Notes under the pieces: generated by a model
Database searches by the model: none
The model's input: only the letters and a program-made list of their open reading frames with translations
What the model was told of the DNA's origin: nothing
NCBI GenBank assembly: GCA_025355465.1
Contig: JANXZO010000042.1
Location: forward strand, 1-64,000
Reading direction: 5' to 3'
Source of the DNA: Bacteroidales bacterium
GTDB lineage: Bacteria > Bacteroidota > Bacteroidia > Bacteroidales > FEN-979
DNA length: 64,000 bases
Position numbers and translations under genes: made by a program
Shown here: piece by piece, positions 892 to 10,916 of the stretch
Layout of the letters: every line of letters begins with the position of its first letter
How positions within the stretch are numbered: the first letter of the stretch is position 1

Positions 892-3534
892 TTACTTATT
901 GATAACAATTCGACGAGTGACAATCGAAGCATCGGCCACCATTCTCAGCATATATAATCCATCAGGCAGGCTTGCTACGTTTACCGAAATACTGGTCGCA
1001 TCATCAGAAATCGTCTTGGTCAGCACAGTCTGTCCCTGCATATTCACCAACTCGACCCTGCCAATTTTCCTGTTGTAGTTGGTTACATCGAGGCTGACAA
1101 CCTCCCTGACCGGGTTTGGAAATACCCTGATATTATCTTCAGCGGATTTCGGTTCAACTCCCAACGGGTATTTACCGACGTTTATGGATAACAGATAAGT
1201 TCCGGTTTGCCCTGTGTATTTAGGTGATACCTGGAACCATACAGGTCCTCCGTTCGGAAGCTGGATGTTGTTTGGGATCATATCGTCAAACACCTCCGAT
1301 CCGTTAACCCCATCGGTAGAATACATGAAGATCGCATCCAGGGTATAAGTAGTACCGTTGTTCCCGAAGCTGGCGTCGAATAATTTACCTCCAACGCTGT
1401 AAGAGTTCCCCTGGGGAAGATCGATTTTGTAGAGATCATAGTCAACTCCGGTATTGCAGTTTGACCCGTTTGTTGTGACGATCGCTTCATTCCCCGAGAA
1501 GGTAACCGGAAGGTTTGAAGCTTCGGCAATGGTGTTATTTGGTTCATAAATATCGGCTGAAAGTTCTTCCAGCTTAACAGTGACCTTGATCGGATTCTGG
1601 TACGTTGATGACCCCGTGAGTTCCCAATTGCTGCCATCGGGTTTGTGCTGCAAGGCCAGGAGATAAGTGCCTGGCTCAGCCGTCAGATGGGAACTTTGAA
1701 AGGTTAGTCCGTCGGTGAAGTGTGTCCCGGCAGGTATAGTTGCACCAGTCATTTCCTGGATGGTCTCAACAAATGAACCGTCGAGGTTATAGAGCGAAAC
1801 ATCGAGGGTTCCCGAGAAAGTTGTCGAACCAAAGTTGGCGATGTCAAGATGAACGGACAAAGCGCCATTCTGGGTCAGGGTGGTTCCCGGGGTTACGGTT
1901 ATGGGAAGGTATAGCTCAATGGGATTCTGGTTCACCACATCGATCTGAACCCAGTTGGTATAGCTGCCACTGTTCTCAACCTGGTACCAGTTCCCTCCGG
2001 TTGGCCTGTAATAGATTCCGATGTAATAGGTGCCAGGCAAAATATTGAAAGAGCCGGGATTGTTAAAAGTTAATCCGTCGGTATAATGGTAACCACCTTG
2101 CAGCGACTGACTGGTAAGGATTTCGACAAAATCGACAAAAGCATTTGTATTGTCGAAAAGGGCAGCACAATAGTCGCCCTGGAAGGTATTGGTGCCGGCA
2201 TTGGCAATGTCTGTATGTATGGAAAAGGAGTTGCCATAGGCAACTGTTGTGGTGGAGGGTGTTATGTTTGCGTAAAGTTGCATGGTGTAGGTTGTGCCTC
2301 CGCCACCACCGCCTCCGCCACCACCGCCTCCGGCAGATTTGATGCCGATGAGAGCCTGGTGTCCGCTGTTAAAACCACCAGTTCCGCCTCCGGTTCCTAC
2401 GCCGCCCGGATTCATGGCATCGATGGCGAAGTAACCATCATAACTGCCCGACCATCCCCAGTTAAAATGAAAAAAATCGTTGCCGTCATAACCGTCACAA
2501 TCGAAGCAATGGCCGCCTCCACTTCCGAATCCGGCGTAAAGAATTGGCCTGCTGGCATCAAGTTCAGTTTTTAACAGACTGATCCATTGCGCATCACTAT
2601 AATTTTCACGGGCAATTCCCTGCATGTCGGTCGGATAGCCGAAATAGGTCTTCATTGCATATTCGGCACAATTTGTTACTGGGCTTTTTGAGGAGATAAC
2701 ATAAGCTCCACTGCCCCCCTGGGAGGCAACGCCGAAGTTCATGTCGACGCCAACCCCGCAGTGGAACATCAGTTTGGCTACTGCATCGTTTGCCGAAGTG
2801 ACACTGTTTGGCATCGATGCCCATTGATAGGTGGTACCTGCAAAATCAGCAGAAAGCGTTCCATAGGTATTGTGGTTATAGGAATGAAAACCTGAACCGG
2901 TTTCAGGAAAATTCCAGTACTTCATGATCTGGGCCATGGCGGTGGCAACACATCCTGTCACGGTTAATTCTCCGTACTGGTTATCGTACGGACTGAGTGC
3001 GTTATAATAAGGCCGCTGGTCCCAGGTGGTCTGTATCAGCGCCGCCACGGTGTTGCCTACTTTCAGTGTGCCTCCGAAATTTCCGGGTTTTAGCAAAGCC
3101 TCCCAATCCGCTTTGATCTTGTCGGTTGCCGGAAGATTGTTATCGATCACGTAGGCGATCTGGTCGGAATATTCGTGTAACCAGGCAGCAACATGCGGAG
3201 GCATGCTCTTCGTATCGAAACCTTTCTGGTCTGAGTATGCAAGTACAGGCTTTACCTGGTCATCGGCAGAAACAATGATGAAGCCTTTTCCTGCAATTAC
3301 ATTGAACACGTAAAAGCACAAATTATTCTGCACCTGGCCTGATGCATCAGTAGCCGGGACCGACTCTTTATAAACAAGTTCAAGCGTAGGAGAATTTTTA
3401 AGAAGTGGCGAATTGCCCCGGGTAAGTAAAAACTGCTTTCCTGCAGCCTGTGCTGTCTTTTCATCAACCTGCTTTGCATATGTCGATCCGACGAAAAGAA
3501 ACACCATCAGAAAATAGGTAAAAATTCGTTTCAT
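892..3534 (-). CDS. secreted C10-family (streptopain-like) cysteine peptidase with T9SS sorting domain
   Basis: An 880-residue exported peptidase. Order: signal peptide (1-20), Spi-like propeptide (about 21-150), C10 catalytic domain (about 160-400), poly-Gly linker (402-413), two repeated Ig-like/CARDB-like domains (about 415-640), a pre-peptidase C-terminal type domain (about 660-790) and a T9SS type A sorting domain (about 800-880, beginning VFPNPVREVVSLDV). The catalytic Cys is Cys195 in TVTGCVATAMAQIMKYW and the catalytic His is His342 in GGGHCFDCDGY, followed by the family's FHFNWGWSG block (355-363). Family knowledge: C10 enzymes include streptopain and interpain and are made as inactive zymogens. 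It is monocistronic and probably exported through the outer membrane by T9SS and anchored or released. The paired beta domains are likely spacers or binding modules. A weak -7-like TATTTTCG lies about 70 bases upstream. Confidence 0.92.
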   Translation of the reverse strand: MKRIFTYFLMVFLFVGSTYAKQVDEKTAQAAGKQFLLTRGNSPLLKNSPTLELVYKESVPATDASGQVQNNLCFYVFNVIAGKGFIIVSADDQVKPVLAYSDQKGFDTKSMPPHVAAWLHEYSDQIAYVIDNNLPATDKIKADWEALLKPGNFGGTLKVGNTVAALIQTTWDQRPYYNALSPYDNQYGELTVTGCVATAMAQIMKYWNFPETGSGFHSYNHNTYGTLSADFAGTTYQWASMPNSVTSANDAVAKLMFHCGVGVDMNFGVASQGGSGAYVISSKSPVTNCAEYAMKTYFGYPTDMQGIARENYSDAQWISLLKTELDASRPILYAGFGSGGGHCFDCDGYDGNDFFHFNWGWSGSYDGYFAIDAMNPGGVGTGGGTGGFNSGHQALIGIKSAGGGGGGGGGGGGTTYTMQLYANITPSTTTVAYGNSFSIHTDIANAGTNTFQGDYCAALFDNTNAFVDFVEILTSQSLQGGYHYTDGLTFNNPGSFNILPGTYYIGIYYRPTGGNWYQVENSGSYTNWVQIDVVNQNPIELYLPITVTPGTTLTQNGALSVHLDIANFGSTTFSGTLDVSLYNLDGSFVETIQEMTGATIPAGTHFTDGLTFQSSHLTAEPGTYLLALQHKPDGSNWELTGSSTYQNPIKVTVKLEELSADIYEPNNTIAEASNLPVTFSGNEAIVTTNGSNCNTGVDYDLYKIDLPQGNSYSVGGKLFDASFGNNGTTYTLDAIFMYSTDGVNGSEVFDDMIPNNIQLPNGGPVWFQVSPKYTGQTGTYLLSINVGKYPLGVEPKSAEDNIRVFPNPVREVVSLDVTNYNRKIGRVELVNMQGQTVLTKTISDDATSISVNVASLPDGLYMLRMVADASIVTRRIVINK

Positions 3535-3659
3535 GGTTTTCGGTTTTAAGGATTTGTTGTTAATTATTTCACTAACAGATTTAAAATCAAATGAATCCGA
3601 CTACGAAAATACGACATATTTTATGGAAAAGCAAATGGGAGCAACTGAGGCAAAATAGT

Positions 3660-3667
3660 TACTTTTG
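3660..3667 (+). promoter_or_regulatory. -7 promoter element of the mevalonate operon (TACTTTTG)
   Basis: TACTTTTG matches TAnnTTTG exactly. Transcription would begin a few bases downstream, near 3674, so the in-frame TTG at 3665 sits inside the promoter and cannot be the start codon. This fixes the first gene's start at ATG 3713. No good -33 box is visible. Confidence 0.65.
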
Positions 3668-3712
3668 TGCCCTGATATTTATTGTAATAGCAATTTGACA
3701 GGCTACATTTCC

Positions 3713-4714
3713 ATGGAAAAGCGGAAGAATGACCATATTGCGCTTGCATTTTCTTCGCAAATTAATGAATCCCTTGCGGATCAACGGTTTACTTATGAGC
3801 CAATGTTGGGTTCACATGTACTGGGCGATTTAGACCCGGTTGCTTTTCTGGATAGGGAGTTAAAGGTCCCTATGTGGGTTTCAAGCATGACCGGGGGTAC
3901 CGATCTGGCCCGGATTATCAATACTAATCTGGCCCGGGCATGTAATGAGTTTGGAATGGGAATGGGACTCGGTTCCTGCAGAATTCTGCTCGACGACATG
4001 TCCAGATTCCCTGATTTTGATATGCGGGAGGTGATTGGCAAAGATCTGCCGCTTTACGCCAACATTGGAATTGTTCAGGTTGAAGATATGCTGGAGAATA
4101 AAAGCATACCGAAACTGACAGATCTTGTTGAACGGTTGAAGGCGGATGGTTTGATCATTCACGTGAATCCTGTGCAGGAGTGGATTCAGAATGAAGGGGA
4201 TTTACTTAAACATCCGCCGGTTGAAACGATTGAGAGATTCCTGTCCATCACAGGGATGAAGGTGATTGTAAAAGAGGTAGGTCAGGGGATGGGTCCTGAA
4301 AGTATCGCAAGACTGATGCAGTTACCCATCGAAGCGTTTGAACTGGCTGCGCTTGGCGGGACTAATTTTGCCAGTGTGGAGATGGCCCGGAGCGGACCTG
4401 CAAAACAGGATATGTATGGTCCGTTGGCTAAAATAGGTCATACCGCAAGTGAAATGCTGGGTGTAATCAATGGACTGGTCTCTTCAGGGAAGCCTGTTTC
4501 TTGTCGTCAGATTATCATTTCAGGGGGCATCGGCTCGTTCCTGGATGGATATTTTTATATGTCAAAAAGCCTTTTGCCTTCTGTATATGGTCAGGCTTCC
4601 GGATTTCTGCGGTTTGCCAGGGGTGATTACGAGGAGTTGAGAAATTATGTTATTGGGCAAATAAACGGATTGAAATTCGCAAGAGCCTTTCTTAAGGTAA
4701 AAAACGGAGCATGA
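3713..4714 (+). CDS. fni: type 2 isopentenyl-diphosphate delta-isomerase (FMN-dependent)
   Basis: A 333-residue cytoplasmic enzyme that interconverts isopentenyl and dimethylallyl diphosphate using reduced FMN. Seen: N-terminal MEKRKNDHI (the family's RKxxHI), the SSMTGGT loop near residue 60, NPVQEWIQNEGD with the conserved Gln/Glu near residue 150, VKEVGQGMG, GGTNFASVE and a C-terminal GGIGSFLDG phosphate-binding segment. Length fits the family (about 340). An upstream TTG would add 16 residues but lies in the -7 element, so ATG 3713 is used. It is the first gene of a five-gene mevalonate operon; its stop overlaps the next start (ATGA). In organisms with the mevalonate route, which delivers only isopentenyl diphosphate, such an isomerase is essential. 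Confidence 0.93.
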   Translation: MEKRKNDHIALAFSSQINESLADQRFTYEPMLGSHVLGDLDPVAFLDRELKVPMWVSSMTGGTDLARIINTNLARACNEFGMGMGLGSCRILLDDMSRFPDFDMREVIGKDLPLYANIGIVQVEDMLENKSIPKLTDLVERLKADGLIIHVNPVQEWIQNEGDLLKHPPVETIERFLSITGMKVIVKEVGQGMGPESIARLMQLPIEAFELAALGGTNFASVEMARSGPAKQDMYGPLAKIGHTASEMLGVINGLVSSGKPVSCRQIIISGGIGSFLDGYFYMSKSLLPSVYGQASGFLRFARGDYEELRNYVIGQINGLKFARAFLKVKNGA

Positions 4715-6024
4715 GAACCAGAATACTTAAAGGCTTTTCCAAGCTGACCGAGAATCAGAAACGTAATCTTATCGCGCAGTACTGCAAGGATCCTGAGGGG
4801 GCTGAAGGGGAGATGAAAAGTCTGCTGTTTGCTGATCCTGAGGAACGCAAAAATTTTCTCGAACTCAGCGAAAACACCATCAGCAGTTTTCACCTGCCGT
4901 ATGGAATAGTGCCCAATGTTGTTGTTGATGGGAAGGTATATCATGTACCGATGGCAATTGAGGAGAGTTCCGTAGTTGCCGCGGCCTCTCACAGCACAAG
5001 GTTTTGGGCCGAACATGGTGGCTTCAGGGTGAAACAATTGTCGACCATCAAGCTTGGCCATGTTTATTTCCGTTGGTTCGGCGAACCTGCCGCTCTGCTT
5101 CAGCGCTGGGATCAGCTTAAAGCTCACCTGCTCGAACATTTGAAAAAGGTAACTGCCAGCATGGTGCACCGCGGTGGCGGAGTTATCAGCCTGGAACTGA
5201 TTGATGAAACCAGGTCGATTGAGAATCTCTACAAGCTTGAACTGGAGGTTGATACTGTGAATTCGATGGGAGCCAACTTTATTAACACCTGCCTTGAGGA
5301 CATGGCAGAAGGGTTGGAGGTGTTTTTCGGCGACGGCAAAGAAATTAATGACAGAGAATGCCAGGTTTCGATGGCCATTCTGAGTAATAATACAGCAAAA
5401 TGCACCGTCACGGTGGAGGCCTCCTGCCAGATTGACTCACTTTCAAGGATCACCGAAGGGATGCCTGTTGGATTATTTGCAGATAAAATGGTGCTGGCTT
5501 ACCAGATTGCCCACATGGATACTTATCGGGCAGCAACACACAACAAGGGTATTATGAATGGGGTGGATGCTGTTCTCATTGCTACGGGAAACGATTTCAG
5601 AGCGGCTGAAGCGGCAACCCACGCATATGCTTCCCGCAGCGGTCAGTATCGCGGACTTAGCTGGTGCGAAGTCAGGGATGAAGTTCTTACCTTGGGGCTG
5701 ACATTGCCACTCGCCGTGGGAACCGTCGGAGGAATAACAAACCTCCATCCGCTGGCAAGGCTTTCGCTGGAGATATTGGGTAATCCTTCGGCACGTGATC
5801 TGATGGGCATTGTCGCCGCTGTTGGACTTGCAACGAACTTCGCCTCTGTAAGAAGTCTCGTCACCACTGGTATTCAGAAGGGTCATATGCGGCTGCACCT
5901 GTCGAATATGCTCAATGCGCTGAATGCGGATGAAGAGCAGCGCAAGGAGGCAGAAATTCATTTCAGGGGCAAAAAGGTCAGTTATTCCGCCGTAAAGCAT
6001 TTTATCAATGGACGAGGTCATTGA
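4711..6024 (+). CDS. hydroxymethylglutaryl-CoA reductase, class II-like
   Basis: A 437-residue soluble reductase lacking the membrane anchor of eukaryotic forms. It makes mevalonate from HMG-CoA. Seen: ENTISSFHLPYGI (54-66), the MAIEESSVVAAAS block with the catalytic Glu at 84/85, DTVNSMGAN (181-189), the catalytic Lys259 in ADKM, Asp286 in NKGIMNGVDAV, ATGNDFRAAEA (291-301) and the catalytic His392 in KGHMRLHL near the C-terminus. All four classic catalytic residues (Glu, Lys, Asp, His) are present. Length matches class II bacterial enzymes (about 430). NADH versus NADPH preference cannot be read from the sequence. It overlaps fni by 4 bases (ATGA) and the next kinase by 17 bases, so translation is coupled. 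Confidence 0.92.
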   Translation: MRTRILKGFSKLTENQKRNLIAQYCKDPEGAEGEMKSLLFADPEERKNFLELSENTISSFHLPYGIVPNVVVDGKVYHVPMAIEESSVVAAASHSTRFWAEHGGFRVKQLSTIKLGHVYFRWFGEPAALLQRWDQLKAHLLEHLKKVTASMVHRGGGVISLELIDETRSIENLYKLELEVDTVNSMGANFINTCLEDMAEGLEVFFGDGKEINDRECQVSMAILSNNTAKCTVTVEASCQIDSLSRITEGMPVGLFADKMVLAYQIAHMDTYRAATHNKGIMNGVDAVLIATGNDFRAAEAATHAYASRSGQYRGLSWCEVRDEVLTLGLTLPLAVGTVGGITNLHPLARLSLEILGNPSARDLMGIVAAVGLATNFASVRSLVTTGIQKGHMRLHLSNMLNALNADEEQRKEAEIHFRGKKVSYSAVKHFINGRGH

Positions 6025-6928
6025 CCTGCGGGCCAACGGCAAATTGCTTTTGGCGGGCGAATATCTCGTTCTTTCCGGTGCCAGGGCACTGGCCCTGCCA
6101 GTCAGGTTTGGTCAGCGACTACGGGCCTGCCCGATTTCAAATCCACTCCTGCGATGGTCAGCCTGTCAGCCTTCGGGCAAGTGGTTTGGTTGTGAAATCG
6201 ATCTGAATTTTTTCCAGGTATTAAACACTACCGATAATACTGTTTCCGGTTGGTTGGTAATGCTCCTTCATGCAGCCCGTTTGCTAAATCCCGGTTTTCT
6301 TCGCAACCAGCATGGCTACATTGTAACAACCGAAACCGAATATCCCATGTCATGGGGATTGGGAAGCAGTTCTACACTCATTGCGATGGTGGCGCACTGG
6401 GCGGCAGTTCCGGTTTTTGATCTCTTCAGACTTATTTCAAATGGTTCGGGGTTTGACATCGCCTGCGCCGACCGCTCCTCTCTTATTAGCTATCAGCTTC
6501 AGAATGGTCTTCCGTTGGTTTCAGAACTCAATCCCGGAAAAGCACTTCGTAGCAACACTTACTTTGCCTGGCTCGGTAAAAAGCAGGAAAGCCATGTTGA
6601 AGTGGAGAAATTTTTACAACAAAGGTTCCGCCCGGAATACGAGATTGCCCGAATTTCTGAAATTGCATTGGAAATTTCCAACTCGGAGAGTGTTGGCGGG
6701 TTGATAGAACTTGTGAAGGAACACGAACAGATACTGGGCAGCATACTATGCAAAGAGCCGGTAGCAGAGCGCTTCCCCGGGTTTCCGGGAACCGTAAAAT
6801 CACTCGGTGCGTGGGGTGGCGATTTCGTGATGTTTGTAACAGCCATGGAGTTGGAAGGGGTAAAAAACTTCCTGTTATTTCATGGTATAACAGATGTTTT
6901 TACATTTGATGAAGTAAAAGCTAATTAG
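6008..6928 (+). CDS. GHMP-family kinase of unassigned substrate (phosphomevalonate kinase candidate)
   Basis: A 306-residue GHMP kinase. Seen: motif 1 region GKLLLAGEYLVLSGARALALPV (11-32), the ATP-binding motif 2 PMSWGLGSSSTL (113-124) and NGSGFDIACA (145-154), whose Asp150 lies where GHMP kinases keep their catalytic Asp. The GSGFDIA signature resembles the Bacteroidetes GHMP kinases named for a GYDIA motif, whose substrate I do not know to be proven. It lies between HMG-CoA reductase and diphosphomevalonate decarboxylase. The operon has a convincing mevalonate kinase (8036) but no other gene for the second phosphorylation, so phosphomevalonate kinase is the natural inference. A 17-base overlap with the reductase gene and one-base overlap (TAGTG) with the next gene show coupling. 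Confidence 0.85.
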   Translation: MDEVIDLRANGKLLLAGEYLVLSGARALALPVRFGQRLRACPISNPLLRWSACQPSGKWFGCEIDLNFFQVLNTTDNTVSGWLVMLLHAARLLNPGFLRNQHGYIVTTETEYPMSWGLGSSSTLIAMVAHWAAVPVFDLFRLISNGSGFDIACADRSSLISYQLQNGLPLVSELNPGKALRSNTYFAWLGKKQESHVEVEKFLQQRFRPEYEIARISEIALEISNSESVGGLIELVKEHEQILGSILCKEPVAERFPGFPGTVKSLGAWGGDFVMFVTAMELEGVKNFLLFHGITDVFTFDEVKAN

Positions 6929-8025
6929 TGAACACTTCACCGCTTTCTGTTTTTTCTCAGAGCACCGTTCGGAAATCACCATCCACAGAGGGATTATGCT
7001 GTTCGTCGTGGCGCAGTCCAGCCAATATTGCGATCATCAAATACTGGGGAAAAAGGCCAGGGCAGATACCTGCGAACCCTTCCCTGAGCATGACGCTTTC
7101 AAATGCCTGCACCACCAACACGGTCATGGCAGCCAGTGCAAATCTCCCGTCATTGCTGATCAATGGGGATATAAAACATCCATTCCATCACAAACTCAAT
7201 ATTTTTCTGGAATGGATGAAACAGGAAATTCCGGCTCTTGAGGGATTGACATTCCATGTAGAAACAACAAACAGTTTTCCGCATTCCACAGGCATCGCCT
7301 CCTCCGCTTCAGGTATCAGTGCCTTCACACTATGTCTCCTGGAAATCGCATCGCAACTTACCGACGTCCGGCTTTCAACGGAGGAGCTTCTGGCGCTGGC
7401 ATCCTATGCCTCCAGGGTAGGGTCGGGAAGTGCCTGCAGATCACTTTATGGAGGTTTTACCATCTGGGGAGCCTCATCACTTGTCGCCGGCTCATCCGAT
7501 CATTTTGCCTTGCCTGTCAATGACATGGTACATCCCGACCTGGCTGATCTCCGCGATGCAATACTGGTGGTTTCAAGTAAGCCGAAAAGCATTGCAAGTT
7601 CCTACGGCCATCAGCTGATGAAGGAACATCCATACGAACGTTGCCGTATTACCCAAGCCGGCAACAATTTCAGTCAGGCGATGCTGGCTTTACAATCGGG
7701 CGATCTGGATCTGCTTGGTAAAATATCTGAAAATGAGGCACTTTCACTGCATTCGCTGATCATGACATCACCCGGCGGCGACATATTGTTCGAGCCGGGT
7801 TCCATCGCCGTCATCAAGAAGGTAAAACAGTTCCGATCCGGCGGGTTACCAATTTTTTTCACCCTTGATGCAGGTCCGAACGTACATCTCCTTTATCCAA
7901 ACAATGCAAAAGTGCAAGTGGAGAACTTTATTCGACAAGAACTCATGCCGCTTTGCGAAGAGGGTACCATAATTTTTGATCACCGGGGATCCGGCCCCCT
8001 GCGGTTGTCTCAAAGTTCCCGGTAA
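6928..8025 (+). CDS. mvaD: diphosphomevalonate decarboxylase
   Basis: A 365-residue GHMP-superfamily enzyme that phosphorylates and decarboxylates diphosphomevalonate to isopentenyl diphosphate. Seen: SPANIAIIKYWGKR (30-43) with the conserved Lys, the P-loop HSTGIASSASG (119-129), GSGSACRSLYGGF with the conserved Arg171, and FTLDAGPNVHLL with the catalytic Asp314. These residues match true decarboxylases rather than mevalonate 3-kinases, which lose them. GTG 6928 is the start, overlapping the previous stop by one base (TAGTG); the region before residue 28 is not conserved, so a later start is possible but no better codon is seen. About 10 bases separate it from the mevalonate kinase gene. Confidence 0.92.
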   Translation: MNTSPLSVFSQSTVRKSPSTEGLCCSSWRSPANIAIIKYWGKRPGQIPANPSLSMTLSNACTTNTVMAASANLPSLLINGDIKHPFHHKLNIFLEWMKQEIPALEGLTFHVETTNSFPHSTGIASSASGISAFTLCLLEIASQLTDVRLSTEELLALASYASRVGSGSACRSLYGGFTIWGASSLVAGSSDHFALPVNDMVHPDLADLRDAILVVSSKPKSIASSYGHQLMKEHPYERCRITQAGNNFSQAMLALQSGDLDLLGKISENEALSLHSLIMTSPGGDILFEPGSIAVIKKVKQFRSGGLPIFFTLDAGPNVHLLYPNNAKVQVENFIRQELMPLCEEGTIIFDHRGSGPLRLSQSSR

Positions 8026-8035
8026 TTTCACCAAA

Positions 8036-8989
8036 ATGAATATCCGACAAACCTTTTCGGCCAAAATTCTGATGTTCGGTGAATACTCTGTACTGCTTGG
8101 TAGTCGTGCCCTAAGTATCCCATTTTCACAGTTTACGGCAATGCTTTCACGACCAGATTGTCCTTCCGGCAGTGAGGCTGAAAAAAGTAACCACCAGTTG
8201 AAACTGTTTTTCGGATTTCTGACAAAAAGGGCTGACTTGTTTGGCGAAACACTTGATCTTGCGAAATTTGGCATAGATGTTTCCGCCGGTCTCTTTTTTA
8301 AATCCACGATCCCGGTAAGCTATGGACTCGGGAGTTCCGGAGCGCTTTGTGCTGCTGTGTTTAGCCGGTATGGTCAGCCTCAGATTTCTGAATTGCTGAA
8401 CCATGCCGGTGATCTGGCACGCCTCAGGAATATTTTTGTAGAAATGGAGTCGTTTTTCCATGGAAAAAGTTCCGGATTCGATCCGTTGGTTATCTTTATG
8501 AACACACCGCTTTGCCTGAACCGGGAAGGGAATCCCGCAGTTGCAACCTTTTCGATGGCAATCAGCCGGGAGAACTACGAAATATTTCTTGTTGACACAG
8601 GCCGGCCGGGCCACACAGGTTCTCTGGTTCCCGGTTTTTTAACGCAATTTGCTCCCGACGGATTGCCGACACCCGAAGGTTACAAGCTAAGTAGTCTGGC
8701 AGGGCAATGCATTGACGGACTGATGTCAGGAGACCACACACTGCTTTGGGAAGCTGTTGAAGCCTTGTCTGTCGAACAGTTTGAATGGTTACGACCCATG
8801 ATTCCTGAACACATGAATTCAGCATGGTCCGAAGGTATTTCAACCGGTCTTTTCCGGCTTAAATTATGCGGCTCGGGCGGTGGAGGTTACCTGCTGGGCT
8901 TTACCCGAAACAGTGAGGAGACATCTCGATATTTCGCCAGCCGGAAAATGATCACGATCCCGGTCGCCCTGCCTTTTAATAAAGCCTGA
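8036..8989 (+). CDS. mevalonate kinase (GHMP family)
   Basis: A 317-residue kinase making 5-phosphomevalonate. Seen: SAKILMFGEYSVLLGSRAL (8-26), the ATP loop IPVSYGLGSSGAL (92-104), the mevalonate-kinase type FHGKSSGFDP (141-150) with catalytic Asp149, and the glycine-rich motif 3 LKLCGSGGGGYLLGF near the C-terminus. The ATG at 8036 is preferred over an upstream start at 7976: the latter would overlap mvaD by 50 bases and the added 20 residues are unlike any GHMP kinase, while 8036 follows the mvaD stop by 10 bases. Its last 14 bases overlap the end of the convergent TPR protein gene. Substrate inferred from motif and operon. Confidence 0.87.
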   Translation: MNIRQTFSAKILMFGEYSVLLGSRALSIPFSQFTAMLSRPDCPSGSEAEKSNHQLKLFFGFLTKRADLFGETLDLAKFGIDVSAGLFFKSTIPVSYGLGSSGALCAAVFSRYGQPQISELLNHAGDLARLRNIFVEMESFFHGKSSGFDPLVIFMNTPLCLNREGNPAVATFSMAISRENYEIFLVDTGRPGHTGSLVPGFLTQFAPDGLPTPEGYKLSSLAGQCIDGLMSGDHTLLWEAVEALSVEQFEWLRPMIPEHMNSAWSEGISTGLFRLKLCGSGGGGYLLGFTRNSEETSRYFASRKMITIPVALPFNKA

Positions 8990-10916
8990 GGAGTGTCTCC
9001 TTTTTTCGTGGTGCCAGGAATATTCCCTCCTTCTCCAGTTCTTCGAGGCCCGGCTTGCCAAGGGTAAGTTTTTGATTAATGTTCTGTGCGCGAAGCAGGT
9101 AACTGCCTGCAGCGGCTTTGTCGTTTTTATTCACCGAAACTGCAACCATTCCAAGGATTGCATTTAGGTTCCCGGGATCCGACACCAGGCAGGTGTAGTA
9201 ATAACCGGCGGCTTTTGCATCATTGGATTGTTCAAAATAGCAGTCGCCGGCTATCCGGTTAAGTTCGGGGATCGCTGCATTAATTGATAAACCTCTTGTG
9301 GAAACTTCCAGTGCCTTATTATAGTTTTTCTCTTGAAAACTTAGCATGCCCAGGTTCACGTAGGCAGCGAGATAATCGGGTTTGATTGCGATAGTCTTTG
9401 AAAAATCATCCATCGCTGCGGTATTATTTCCGGTGTTTACATAGGTCACTCCACGGTTAAATCTTGCATTTGCGTTGGCAGGTTCAAAGTCGATTGTTTT
9501 GGAAAAATCAGCAATGGCCAGTTCAGGCTGCCCCATATTACCGTATACGATGGCGCGGTTTTGATAAACTGCCTTGCAATCCTTGTCGATGGCAAGCGCC
9601 TTGTTCAGATCCTGCAGGGCTTCAGTCCACCTGGCCGCCATGGTATAGGCGACACCGCGGTTAACATACGGCAGCGCCTCCTGGTCGGGGTATTGGCTTA
9701 TGACGTCCGTCCACAGCGTTTCGCCATCATGCCACGCCCGGCAGCGTGCATTGGTGAGAAACAAACACATAAGGCTGAAAAGTGAGAGCAGCGTAATAAG
9801 GGGTGCATGCCATCCACGGTTTTTCTGTGCCAGTTGGCTGGCTCCCCAAACAAGGATAAAGAAGAATCCAAAGTATGCAACATAGGTGTACCTGTCGGCA
9901 GAAAAAGCAATTCCTACGGCAAAGATCTGAAGCAGGAAAATGATGTTGACCAGGAAGAACAGGATGCCGAAAATTATCGCGGGCCAACGATGTCTGTAGT
10001 GAAATGCCAGAAACACACCGGCTGAAATTACCACCGGATTAACGAAATAGAATAAAACTTTGCTGAAACCCCCGAAATGTGGATAAGGATACCATGCACT
10101 GAGTGACAACGGAGCGAAAAATCTGATCATATACCAACTGATGGTATAAAAGGCATAAAATATTCTGTTTGTGAAACTGATGTCAGCATTCCCGGCAAGA
10201 AATGCTTCTGATTTTAGTCCCACGCGATAGATTATATAAATCCCAAGAATACCAAAAAGCAGCGATAAAAGAAAATAGGGGATCTTCTCCATGATCAGCT
10301 GAAATCTCAGCGGACGTTTCAAATAGTAATCGATGAGCAGGAAACACAACGGGAGGGTAACCGCTTCGATTTTGGAGAACAGCGCGAAGATGAAGAACAG
10401 GTAAGCCATTGCCTTGTTCCTGGATCCGTTATCCTGATTTTGATGTTGCCGGATATAGAAAAGCATCGAAGCCAGGTAAAACATACTGTATAAAACGTCT
10501 TTCCGCTCAGAAATCCAGGCAACCGATTCGACCCGCATCGGATGAATGCCGAACAGGAGGGCGCCGAATGCCGCAAAAAGCGGATTTATCTTCAGCATCC
10601 TGAGAATCTGGAAAACAAGTGCCGTACATAACAGGTGCAGGATCAGGTTTGTGAGATGACGGGGAAACGGATTGTCTCCGAAGAGCTGTTGCTCAACGGA
10701 AAAGGTGAGCAGCGGCAGGGGAACATAGGAGCCATTCACCGGTCGTGTGAACATCTTTGCGACCGAATGTAAATTTAGTTCTTTGACAAGCGGATTATTG
10801 ACTACATATTTATCATCGTCCCAGGTAGGCATATAACCATTTCGCAGCGAAGGAATAAAGGCCAGCAGGGTGACAATAAGGATGGCTCCGAGGAGTAGGG
10901 CCGGGTGTTTTATCAT
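8976..10916 (-). CDS. polytopic membrane protein with C-terminal TPR domain (TMTC/GT-C-like)
   Basis: A 646-residue protein with about 10-12 membrane segments in the first 410 residues, then TPR repeats (about 440-620; e.g. NRAIVYGNMGQPELAIADFSKTIDFEPANANARFNRGVTY). The first loop carries WDDDKYVVNNP, an acidic motif placed as in GT-C glycosyltransferases, and HPMRVESVAWISERKDVL is typical of the TMTC-like family, whose eukaryotic members are O-mannosyltransferases using lipid-linked mannose. Transfer activity is inference. The upstream in-frame start at 10979 would add 21 residues overlapping the neighbouring gene; ATG 10916 sits right before the first membrane helix and is preferred. Its neighbour upstream is another GT-C-like membrane protein, ending 34 bases before this start. 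Confidence 0.85.
   Translation of the reverse strand: MIKHPALLLGAILIVTLLAFIPSLRNGYMPTWDDDKYVVNNPLVKELNLHSVAKMFTRPVNGSYVPLPLLTFSVEQQLFGDNPFPRHLTNLILHLLCTALVFQILRMLKINPLFAAFGALLFGIHPMRVESVAWISERKDVLYSMFYLASMLFYIRQHQNQDNGSRNKAMAYLFFIFALFSKIEAVTLPLCFLLIDYYLKRPLRFQLIMEKIPYFLLSLLFGILGIYIIYRVGLKSEAFLAGNADISFTNRIFYAFYTISWYMIRFFAPLSLSAWYPYPHFGGFSKVLFYFVNPVVISAGVFLAFHYRHRWPAIIFGILFFLVNIIFLLQIFAVGIAFSADRYTYVAYFGFFFILVWGASQLAQKNRGWHAPLITLLSLFSLMCLFLTNARCRAWHDGETLWTDVISQYPDQEALPYVNRGVAYTMAARWTEALQDLNKALAIDKDCKAVYQNRAIVYGNMGQPELAIADFSKTIDFEPANANARFNRGVTYVNTGNNTAAMDDFSKTIAIKPDYLAAYVNLGMLSFQEKNYNKALEVSTRGLSINAAIPELNRIAGDCYFEQSNDAKAAGYYYTCLVSDPGNLNAILGMVAVSVNKNDKAAAGSYLLRAQNINQKLTLGKPGLEELEKEGIFLAPRKKETLLRLY

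Follow-up and report, generated by a model that had tools for sequence, protein, structure and literature searches.

The phosphomevalonate kinase (PMK) gap of the mevalonate pathway in Flavobacteriaceae is on record, and PMC4026382, which describes the enzyme as seemingly missing, suggests that a GHMP kinase could stand in, with homoserine kinase and galactokinase noted; in PMC13001223, all Legionella species analyzed are described as lacking PMK, and most of them as also lacking 3-hydroxy-3-methylglutaryl-CoA (HMG-CoA) synthase. Leucine feeding of isoprenoid synthesis in trypanosomatids and halophilic archaea is cited in PMC6832408. Here we describe a mevalonate operon of five genes at positions 3713-8989 of a 64,000-nucleotide window (positions 1 to 64,000 of contig JANXZO010000042.1, assembly GCA_025355465.1) from a bacterium of the order Bacteroidales, GTDB lineage FEN-979. 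We propose that the GYDIA-family GHMP kinase encoded at 6008 acts as PMK and that the pathway is fed by HMG-CoA derived from leucine; joining the observed gene content and order with predicted substrates and activities, we put the probability of this combined reading at about 0.6. As in the trypanosomatid and archaeal route cited in PMC6832408, leucine carbon would reach isoprenoids without prior cleavage to acetyl-CoA. In contrast to that route, which belongs to eukaryotes and archaea, the Bacteroidota case is drawn from gene content and gene order, with one fused cluster. A literature search that left most subscription papers outside its reach found no description of leucine-fed mevalonate synthesis or of a GYDIA kinase as PMK in Bacteroidota, and the term 'GYDIA' only in two insect papers. 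If leucine is the source, these bacteria rely on the breakdown of an amino acid for their isoprenoids, with consequences for their physiology and for pathway annotation.

The operon resembles the classical bacterial mevalonate pathway in encoding HMG-CoA reductase (HMGR), mevalonate kinase (MVK), mevalonate 5-diphosphate decarboxylase (MVD) and type 2 isopentenyl-diphosphate isomerase (IDI-2), with a GHMP kinase in the PMK position, but differs from it in that no HMG-CoA synthase was detected in the genome and that dxr, of the methylerythritol phosphate (MEP) route, is also present. The five plus-strand genes lie head to tail, each overlapping or abutting the next, and family scans name all of them, with HMGR, MVD and the GHMP kinase over the curated cut-offs (Table 1); the mevalonate operon recognized in the initial annotation is thus real. 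In the proposed route, leucine or isovalerate breakdown would yield HMG-CoA through acyl-CoA dehydrogenase, methylcrotonyl-CoA carboxylase (MCC) and methylglutaconyl-CoA hydratase, encoded in one cluster, in place of its synthesis from acetoacetyl-CoA by HMG-CoA synthase. HMGR would then convert HMG-CoA to mevalonate, the product of the 8036 gene mevalonate to mevalonate 5-phosphate, the GYDIA kinase mevalonate 5-phosphate to mevalonate 5-diphosphate, MVD the diphosphate to isopentenyl diphosphate (IPP), and IDI-2 IPP to dimethylallyl diphosphate (DMAPP). The HGxSSGxD and GSGGGG motifs of the fifth operon gene are mevalonate-kinase-like, so that the two operon kinases would split the two phosphorylation steps between them; in the forms HGxSSGxDP and CGSGGGG, these motifs are invariant in all 10 aligned homologs. 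Judged from sequence, the operon probably covers each step from HMG-CoA to DMAPP, as the initial annotation had proposed on condition that the 6008 product is PMK. That product stands as the best PMK candidate, no rival having been found, while the accompanying claims on the kinase signature and on the operon as a marker with respect to the MEP route do not (see below).

By family scan, the 6008 product falls within NF040656 of NCBIfam ('GYDIA family GHMP kinase'), which is rated hypothetical equivalog and has no assigned function; we argue a PMK role for it here. The window kinase reads GFDIA, whereas most members of the family read GYDIA. That the family had already been named escaped the initial annotation; the family is, however, uncharacterized. 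Because the operon fills all steps from HMG-CoA to DMAPP with this kinase in the PMK slot, we consider PMK the best assignment for the 6008 product, and a probable one as to activity, and the GYDIA family probably a non-orthologous PMK family, so far uncharacterized. The product drew no match from any NCBIfam PMK model at E 0.1 or better and is therefore not classed as an ortholog of the known PMKs. The genome was searched for another PMK or an isopentenyl phosphate kinase (IPK), either of which the initial annotation had raised as a competitor, and none was found among its GHMP and amino-acid kinases: apart from the operon genes, the former comprise a galactokinase, an HddA-like and an IspE-like protein, and the latter (PF00696 matches) UMP kinase, aspartokinases and carbamate kinase, all named by eye from their translations.

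The AlphaFold model of the 6008 product (pLDDT 93.4) finds its best VIA-align match in the PMK of S. pneumoniae (3gon; Z 25.9, 277 residues, 3.0 A), followed by 3k17 (Z 25.7) and then 8tfo (Z 24.8). The kinase shares the fold of the S. pneumoniae-type PMK (3gon, 1k47) and the corresponding GEY, GS..D.A and KS.GA.GGD motifs, and differs from it in sequence (~21% identity). The GSGFDIA signature had been described as unlike those of known PMKs; profile alignment to the S. pneumoniae enzyme instead places PMK-like motifs in register, with GSGYDIA against GSMGDLA, KSLGAWGGD against KSSGAGGGD and GEY common to both. A solved mevalonate kinase in the same profile output has GEH and GAGGGG. Three observations pull away from the PMK assignment: 8tfo, titled 'Structure of MKvar' and read as a mevalonate kinase, lies only 1.1 Z below 3gon; Foldseek E-values put mevalonate kinases first (1kkh, 1.7e-15), with PMK 1k47 at rank 13 (2.0e-13); and the closest solved structure by sequence is a mevalonate kinase.

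Matches to NF040656 over the cut-off were found in 12 of 41 genomes (our genome and 40 relatives) and in 19 of the 148 genomes sampled across the phylum, our genome included. For the analysis of gene neighborhoods, 80 loci were kept of the 567 kinase relatives obtained in a scan of named genomes. HMGR is encoded directly upstream of the GYDIA kinase in 74 of these loci; in a 75th (L139), the gene caller missed the kinase, yet it adjoins HMGR in a second neighborhood listing. The six loci counted as lacking an HMGR neighbor are L139 and five others, which have none in the second listing either and three of which begin at a contig end. In two genomes of the same genus (G163 and G171), the kinase and MVD are fused in a single 700-aa frame (L031:394-2496 and L032:373-2475). 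We count this fusion and the HMGR adjacency in favor of the PMK role, and a kinase gene adjoining HMGR is a better PMK candidate than those noted for Flavobacteriaceae. The motif GS[GAM]xD[IVL]A is present in 110 of 110 kinase sequences and K[ST]LGAWGGD in 106 of them. Within the family, the operon is patchily distributed, but its kinase and HMGR sequences group together in a single supported clade (13 tips). Another genome (G181) encodes a 787-aa frame (L056:1417-3780) with an N-terminal HMGR and, at the C-terminus, a segment resembling by eye an aminoglycoside/choline-kinase-type domain.

The absence of HMG-CoA synthase, missed by the initial annotation as a problem, is a more puzzling gap than that of PMK and raises a second question, namely, where carbon enters the pathway. 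The earlier remark that the operon contains no HMG-CoA synthase gene is borne out and extends to the whole genome, in which neither PF01154 nor a custom profile, A2, found a match. Among the other 18 genomes of the class that bear the kinase, only seven matched PF01154 over its cut-off, and because we distrusted this model on its own, profile A2 was built from seven HMG-CoA synthases of PF01154-positive genomes. A2 recovered its seven source genomes (E below 1e-236), a divergent archaeal-type synthase in G183 (4e-16) and a marginal match in G148; given that it finds its own seven and, independently, the divergent synthase, we regard the negative results as credible. With both searches, HMG-CoA synthase was undetected in all 12 kinase-bearing genomes of the order, ours included, and in 11 of the 18 others, none of which has a credible dxr; five of these 11 are single contigs rated 100% complete. 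The synthase of G183 (L021:1480-2547), archaeal-type by eye, comes from an order relative where neither HMGR nor the GYDIA kinase was found.

Because the usual HMG-CoA-making enzyme is absent, leucine breakdown becomes the probable feed, and we hold it somewhat probable that the mevalonate pathway draws on leucine-derived HMG-CoA. The strongest single evidence is a fused cluster in Marinilabiliaceae bacterium N1Y90 (genome G195; locus L137, 2106-12917), where nine genes on one strand encode, in this order, MCC beta, a hydratase, MCC alpha, acyl-CoA dehydrogenase, IDI-2, HMGR, the GYDIA kinase, MVD and MVK, with gaps of ~40 nt or less as judged from the translations and a TetR-like regulator upstream in divergent orientation. 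The cluster contains no HMG-CoA lyase gene, and the best lyase match in that genome scores 55 bits, in a 524-aa frame; with no lyase match above 56 bits, the leucine branch would stop at HMG-CoA unless the reductase uses it.

A related cluster is present on contig 62 of our genome (L189), encoding carboxylase beta, enoyl-CoA hydratase, biotin carboxylase alpha, two lyase-like proteins and acyl-CoA dehydrogenase. It was found through an HMG-CoA lyase search of 58 of the ~202 genomes, none of which exceeded the 246-bit cut-off, so that all lyase matches reported here are sub-threshold. The best solved match of its MCC beta is the methylcrotonyl-CoA carboxylase of P. aeruginosa (697 bits), with T. 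maritima-type propionyl-CoA carboxylases further down among the matches at ~272 bits, and the best matches of the first lyase are solved HMG-CoA lyases (138 bits). The substrates of the hydratase and acyl-CoA dehydrogenase are assigned from position, as sequence assigns none. By its predicted products, the contig 62 cluster should yield HMG-CoA from leucine. The two lyase-like genes lie in tandem (L189:11955-13828; 337 and 293 aa), and the second, weaker against the HMG-CoA lyase model, may differ in function. The same cluster was identified in G149 and G163, in G155, where the end of the contig truncates it, and in G148, which lacks the kinase; in G155 and G148, an additional pair of genes lies in between. 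Of the 12 genomes of the order with the kinase, 10 gave a lyase-like match over 170 bits, the exceptions being G184 and G185. For the 11 genomes lacking both HMG-CoA synthase and a credible dxr, a leucine feed is our conjecture. We tentatively extend the scheme to many Bacteroidota, in which leucine-derived HMG-CoA might be the sole entry to a synthase-free mevalonate pathway with a private PMK family, some lineages having a dedicated, lyase-free leucine-to-DMAPP operon such as that of L137; if so, the leucine-fed route would be essential in genomes without the MEP route.

Several observations count against a leucine feed. The fused cluster occurs in one of the 80 loci, its dehydrogenase scores up to 338 bits against short-chain types and ~250 or less against isovaleryl-CoA dehydrogenases, and the searches for HMG-CoA synthase did not take in its genome. 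The MCC beta of contig 62 is matched nearly as well by a 9tps chain labelled propionyl-CoA carboxylase (692 bits). G184 (79% complete) and G185 have the kinase, yet HMG-CoA synthase and a strong match to the lyase are both missing from them. A strong HMG-CoA lyase-like gene is present in nine of nine kinase-bearing versus seven of 11 kinase-free genomes of the family (Fisher p 0.09, for the 20 family genomes included in the lyase search, out of 24 in the kinase survey); the association is not significant, and we do not consider the lyase-like gene tied to the operon within the family.

The relation of the operon to the MEP route differs among lineages. The gene dxr was detected in our genome and in 40 of 40 relatives searched. 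Together with the IspE-like GHMP kinase, assigned by eye, this suggests that our genome holds both routes; with dxr present, the operon is not a replacement of the MEP route there, and the suggestion that it marks a lineage apart from MEP users is not supported as stated. By contrast, the other 18 genomes of the class that carry the kinase include 17 in which dxr was undetected, and the marginal match in the remaining one (G025; 23.2 bits against a cut-off of 21.7, within a 666-aa frame) is regarded as spurious. Among 15 named genomes reached from the loci, one, the genome with the fused cluster, has dxr. The operon is thus an extra route in its own family and apparently the sole route in most of the other genomes searched. 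Four Bacteroidales or Bacteroidia metagenome-assembled genomes (G196, G199, G197 and G198; loci L075, L076, L077 and L116, respectively) carry the GYDIA kinase and HMGR but gave neither a match to dxr nor a strong one to HMG-CoA lyase.

An alternative to the PMK assignment is that the GYDIA kinase is a GHMP-fold IPK and MVD acts on mevalonate 5-phosphate, which would make this an alternative mevalonate pathway whose IPK is unrelated to the known type. The kinase-MVD fusion suits consecutive steps in either order, and no amino-acid-kinase-type IPK was found in the genome; furthermore, the best PDB match of MVD is the phosphomevalonate decarboxylase of A. thermophila, whose His MVD shares at a position occupied by Met in the E. 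faecalis enzyme, two points that weigh against our proposal. However, among the residues listed as discriminating for diphosphate-type decarboxylases in Table 4 of PMC3857490, MVD carries the equivalents of Lys21, non-Arg27, Ser139, Ser141, Ser192 and Asp283, and the diphospho-type set (Lys21, no Arg27, Ser139, Ser141, Ser192) is found in the window MVD and in 34 of 34 relatives, the alignment being restricted to the proteins of loci with an MVD match of E 1e-30 or better. These residues imply that mevalonate diphosphate is needed as the substrate, and MVD reaches 172 bits with TIGR01240 but 80 with NF040704, the model for phosphomevalonate decarboxylase. We therefore rejected MVD as a phosphomevalonate decarboxylase, a function favored by one residue and the best PDB match and opposed by the remaining discriminating positions. 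The kinase motifs and best VIA-align match, too, are PMK-like, and the 6008 product, a GHMP kinase by family scan and structure match, lacks the amino-acid-kinase fold typical of IPK. We consider an IPK role improbable and retain PMK.

For the origin of HMG-CoA, the competing explanation that carries the most weight, although we think it unlikely, is an unrecognized HMG-CoA synthase or an HMG-CoA lyase running in reverse. The 11 genomes (of 18) without a credible dxr or a detectable synthase must still have a source of HMG-CoA; each of them encodes a lyase-like protein scoring 188-202 bits, short of the 246-bit cut-off, and in the five of them inspected, no MCC gene lies within ~10 kb of the lyase-like gene. 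Nevertheless, the synthase profile reached even the divergent protein of G183, and the genome with the fused cluster has no lyase-like match of comparable strength. Loss of the synthase gene in an assembly gap is conceivable for our genome (75 contigs, 98.77% complete), but the repeated absence from the genomes of the order and from the others, including the five complete single contigs, makes this most improbable. We also give little credence to an operon for mevalonate salvage or breakdown, with imported mevalonate and HMGR working in the oxidative direction. The HMGR family model, TIGR00532, is named degradative, and HMG-CoA lyase-like genes are present in our genome; on the other side, the same gene run encodes three more enzymes from mevalonate to IPP together with IDI-2, no uptake gene was recognized by eye adjoining the operon, HMGR directly precedes the kinase in nearly all loci, and, outside the order, most of the searched genomes that carry the kinase lack dxr. 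Leucine thus remains the source of HMG-CoA that we prefer.

Table 1. Genes of the mevalonate operon in the window
Predicted product	Position	Strand	Evidence
Type 2 isopentenyl-diphosphate isomerase (fni/IDI-2)	3713-4714	+	TIGR02151 E 8e-52, 176.2 bits, under curated cut-off 281.3; ATG at 3713
Class II HMG-CoA reductase (HMGR)	4711-6024	+	TIGR00532 284.9 bits, over cut-off 259.95; PF00368 E 3e-83
GYDIA-family GHMP kinase, proposed phosphomevalonate kinase (PMK)	6008-6928	+	NF040656 265.7 bits, over cut-off 225
Mevalonate 5-diphosphate decarboxylase (MVD)	6928-8025	+	TIGR01240 172.3 bits, over cut-off 171.35
Mevalonate kinase (MVK)	8036-8989	+	TIGR00549 76.7 bits, under cut-off 163.05

The GTG start of MVD overlaps the TAG of the GHMP kinase gene. 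The TTG start listed for MVK, at 7976, falls within MVD, and translation of MVK probably begins with the ATG at 8036. An Rfam scan of positions 3000-9500 gave no matches, and promoter and terminator scans gave signals not clearly above those of shuffled sequences. The operon is flanked on either side by a minus-strand gene. The one at 892-3534 encodes an 880-aa secreted protein that, by eye, is a peptidase of the C10 type ending in a C-terminal sorting tail.

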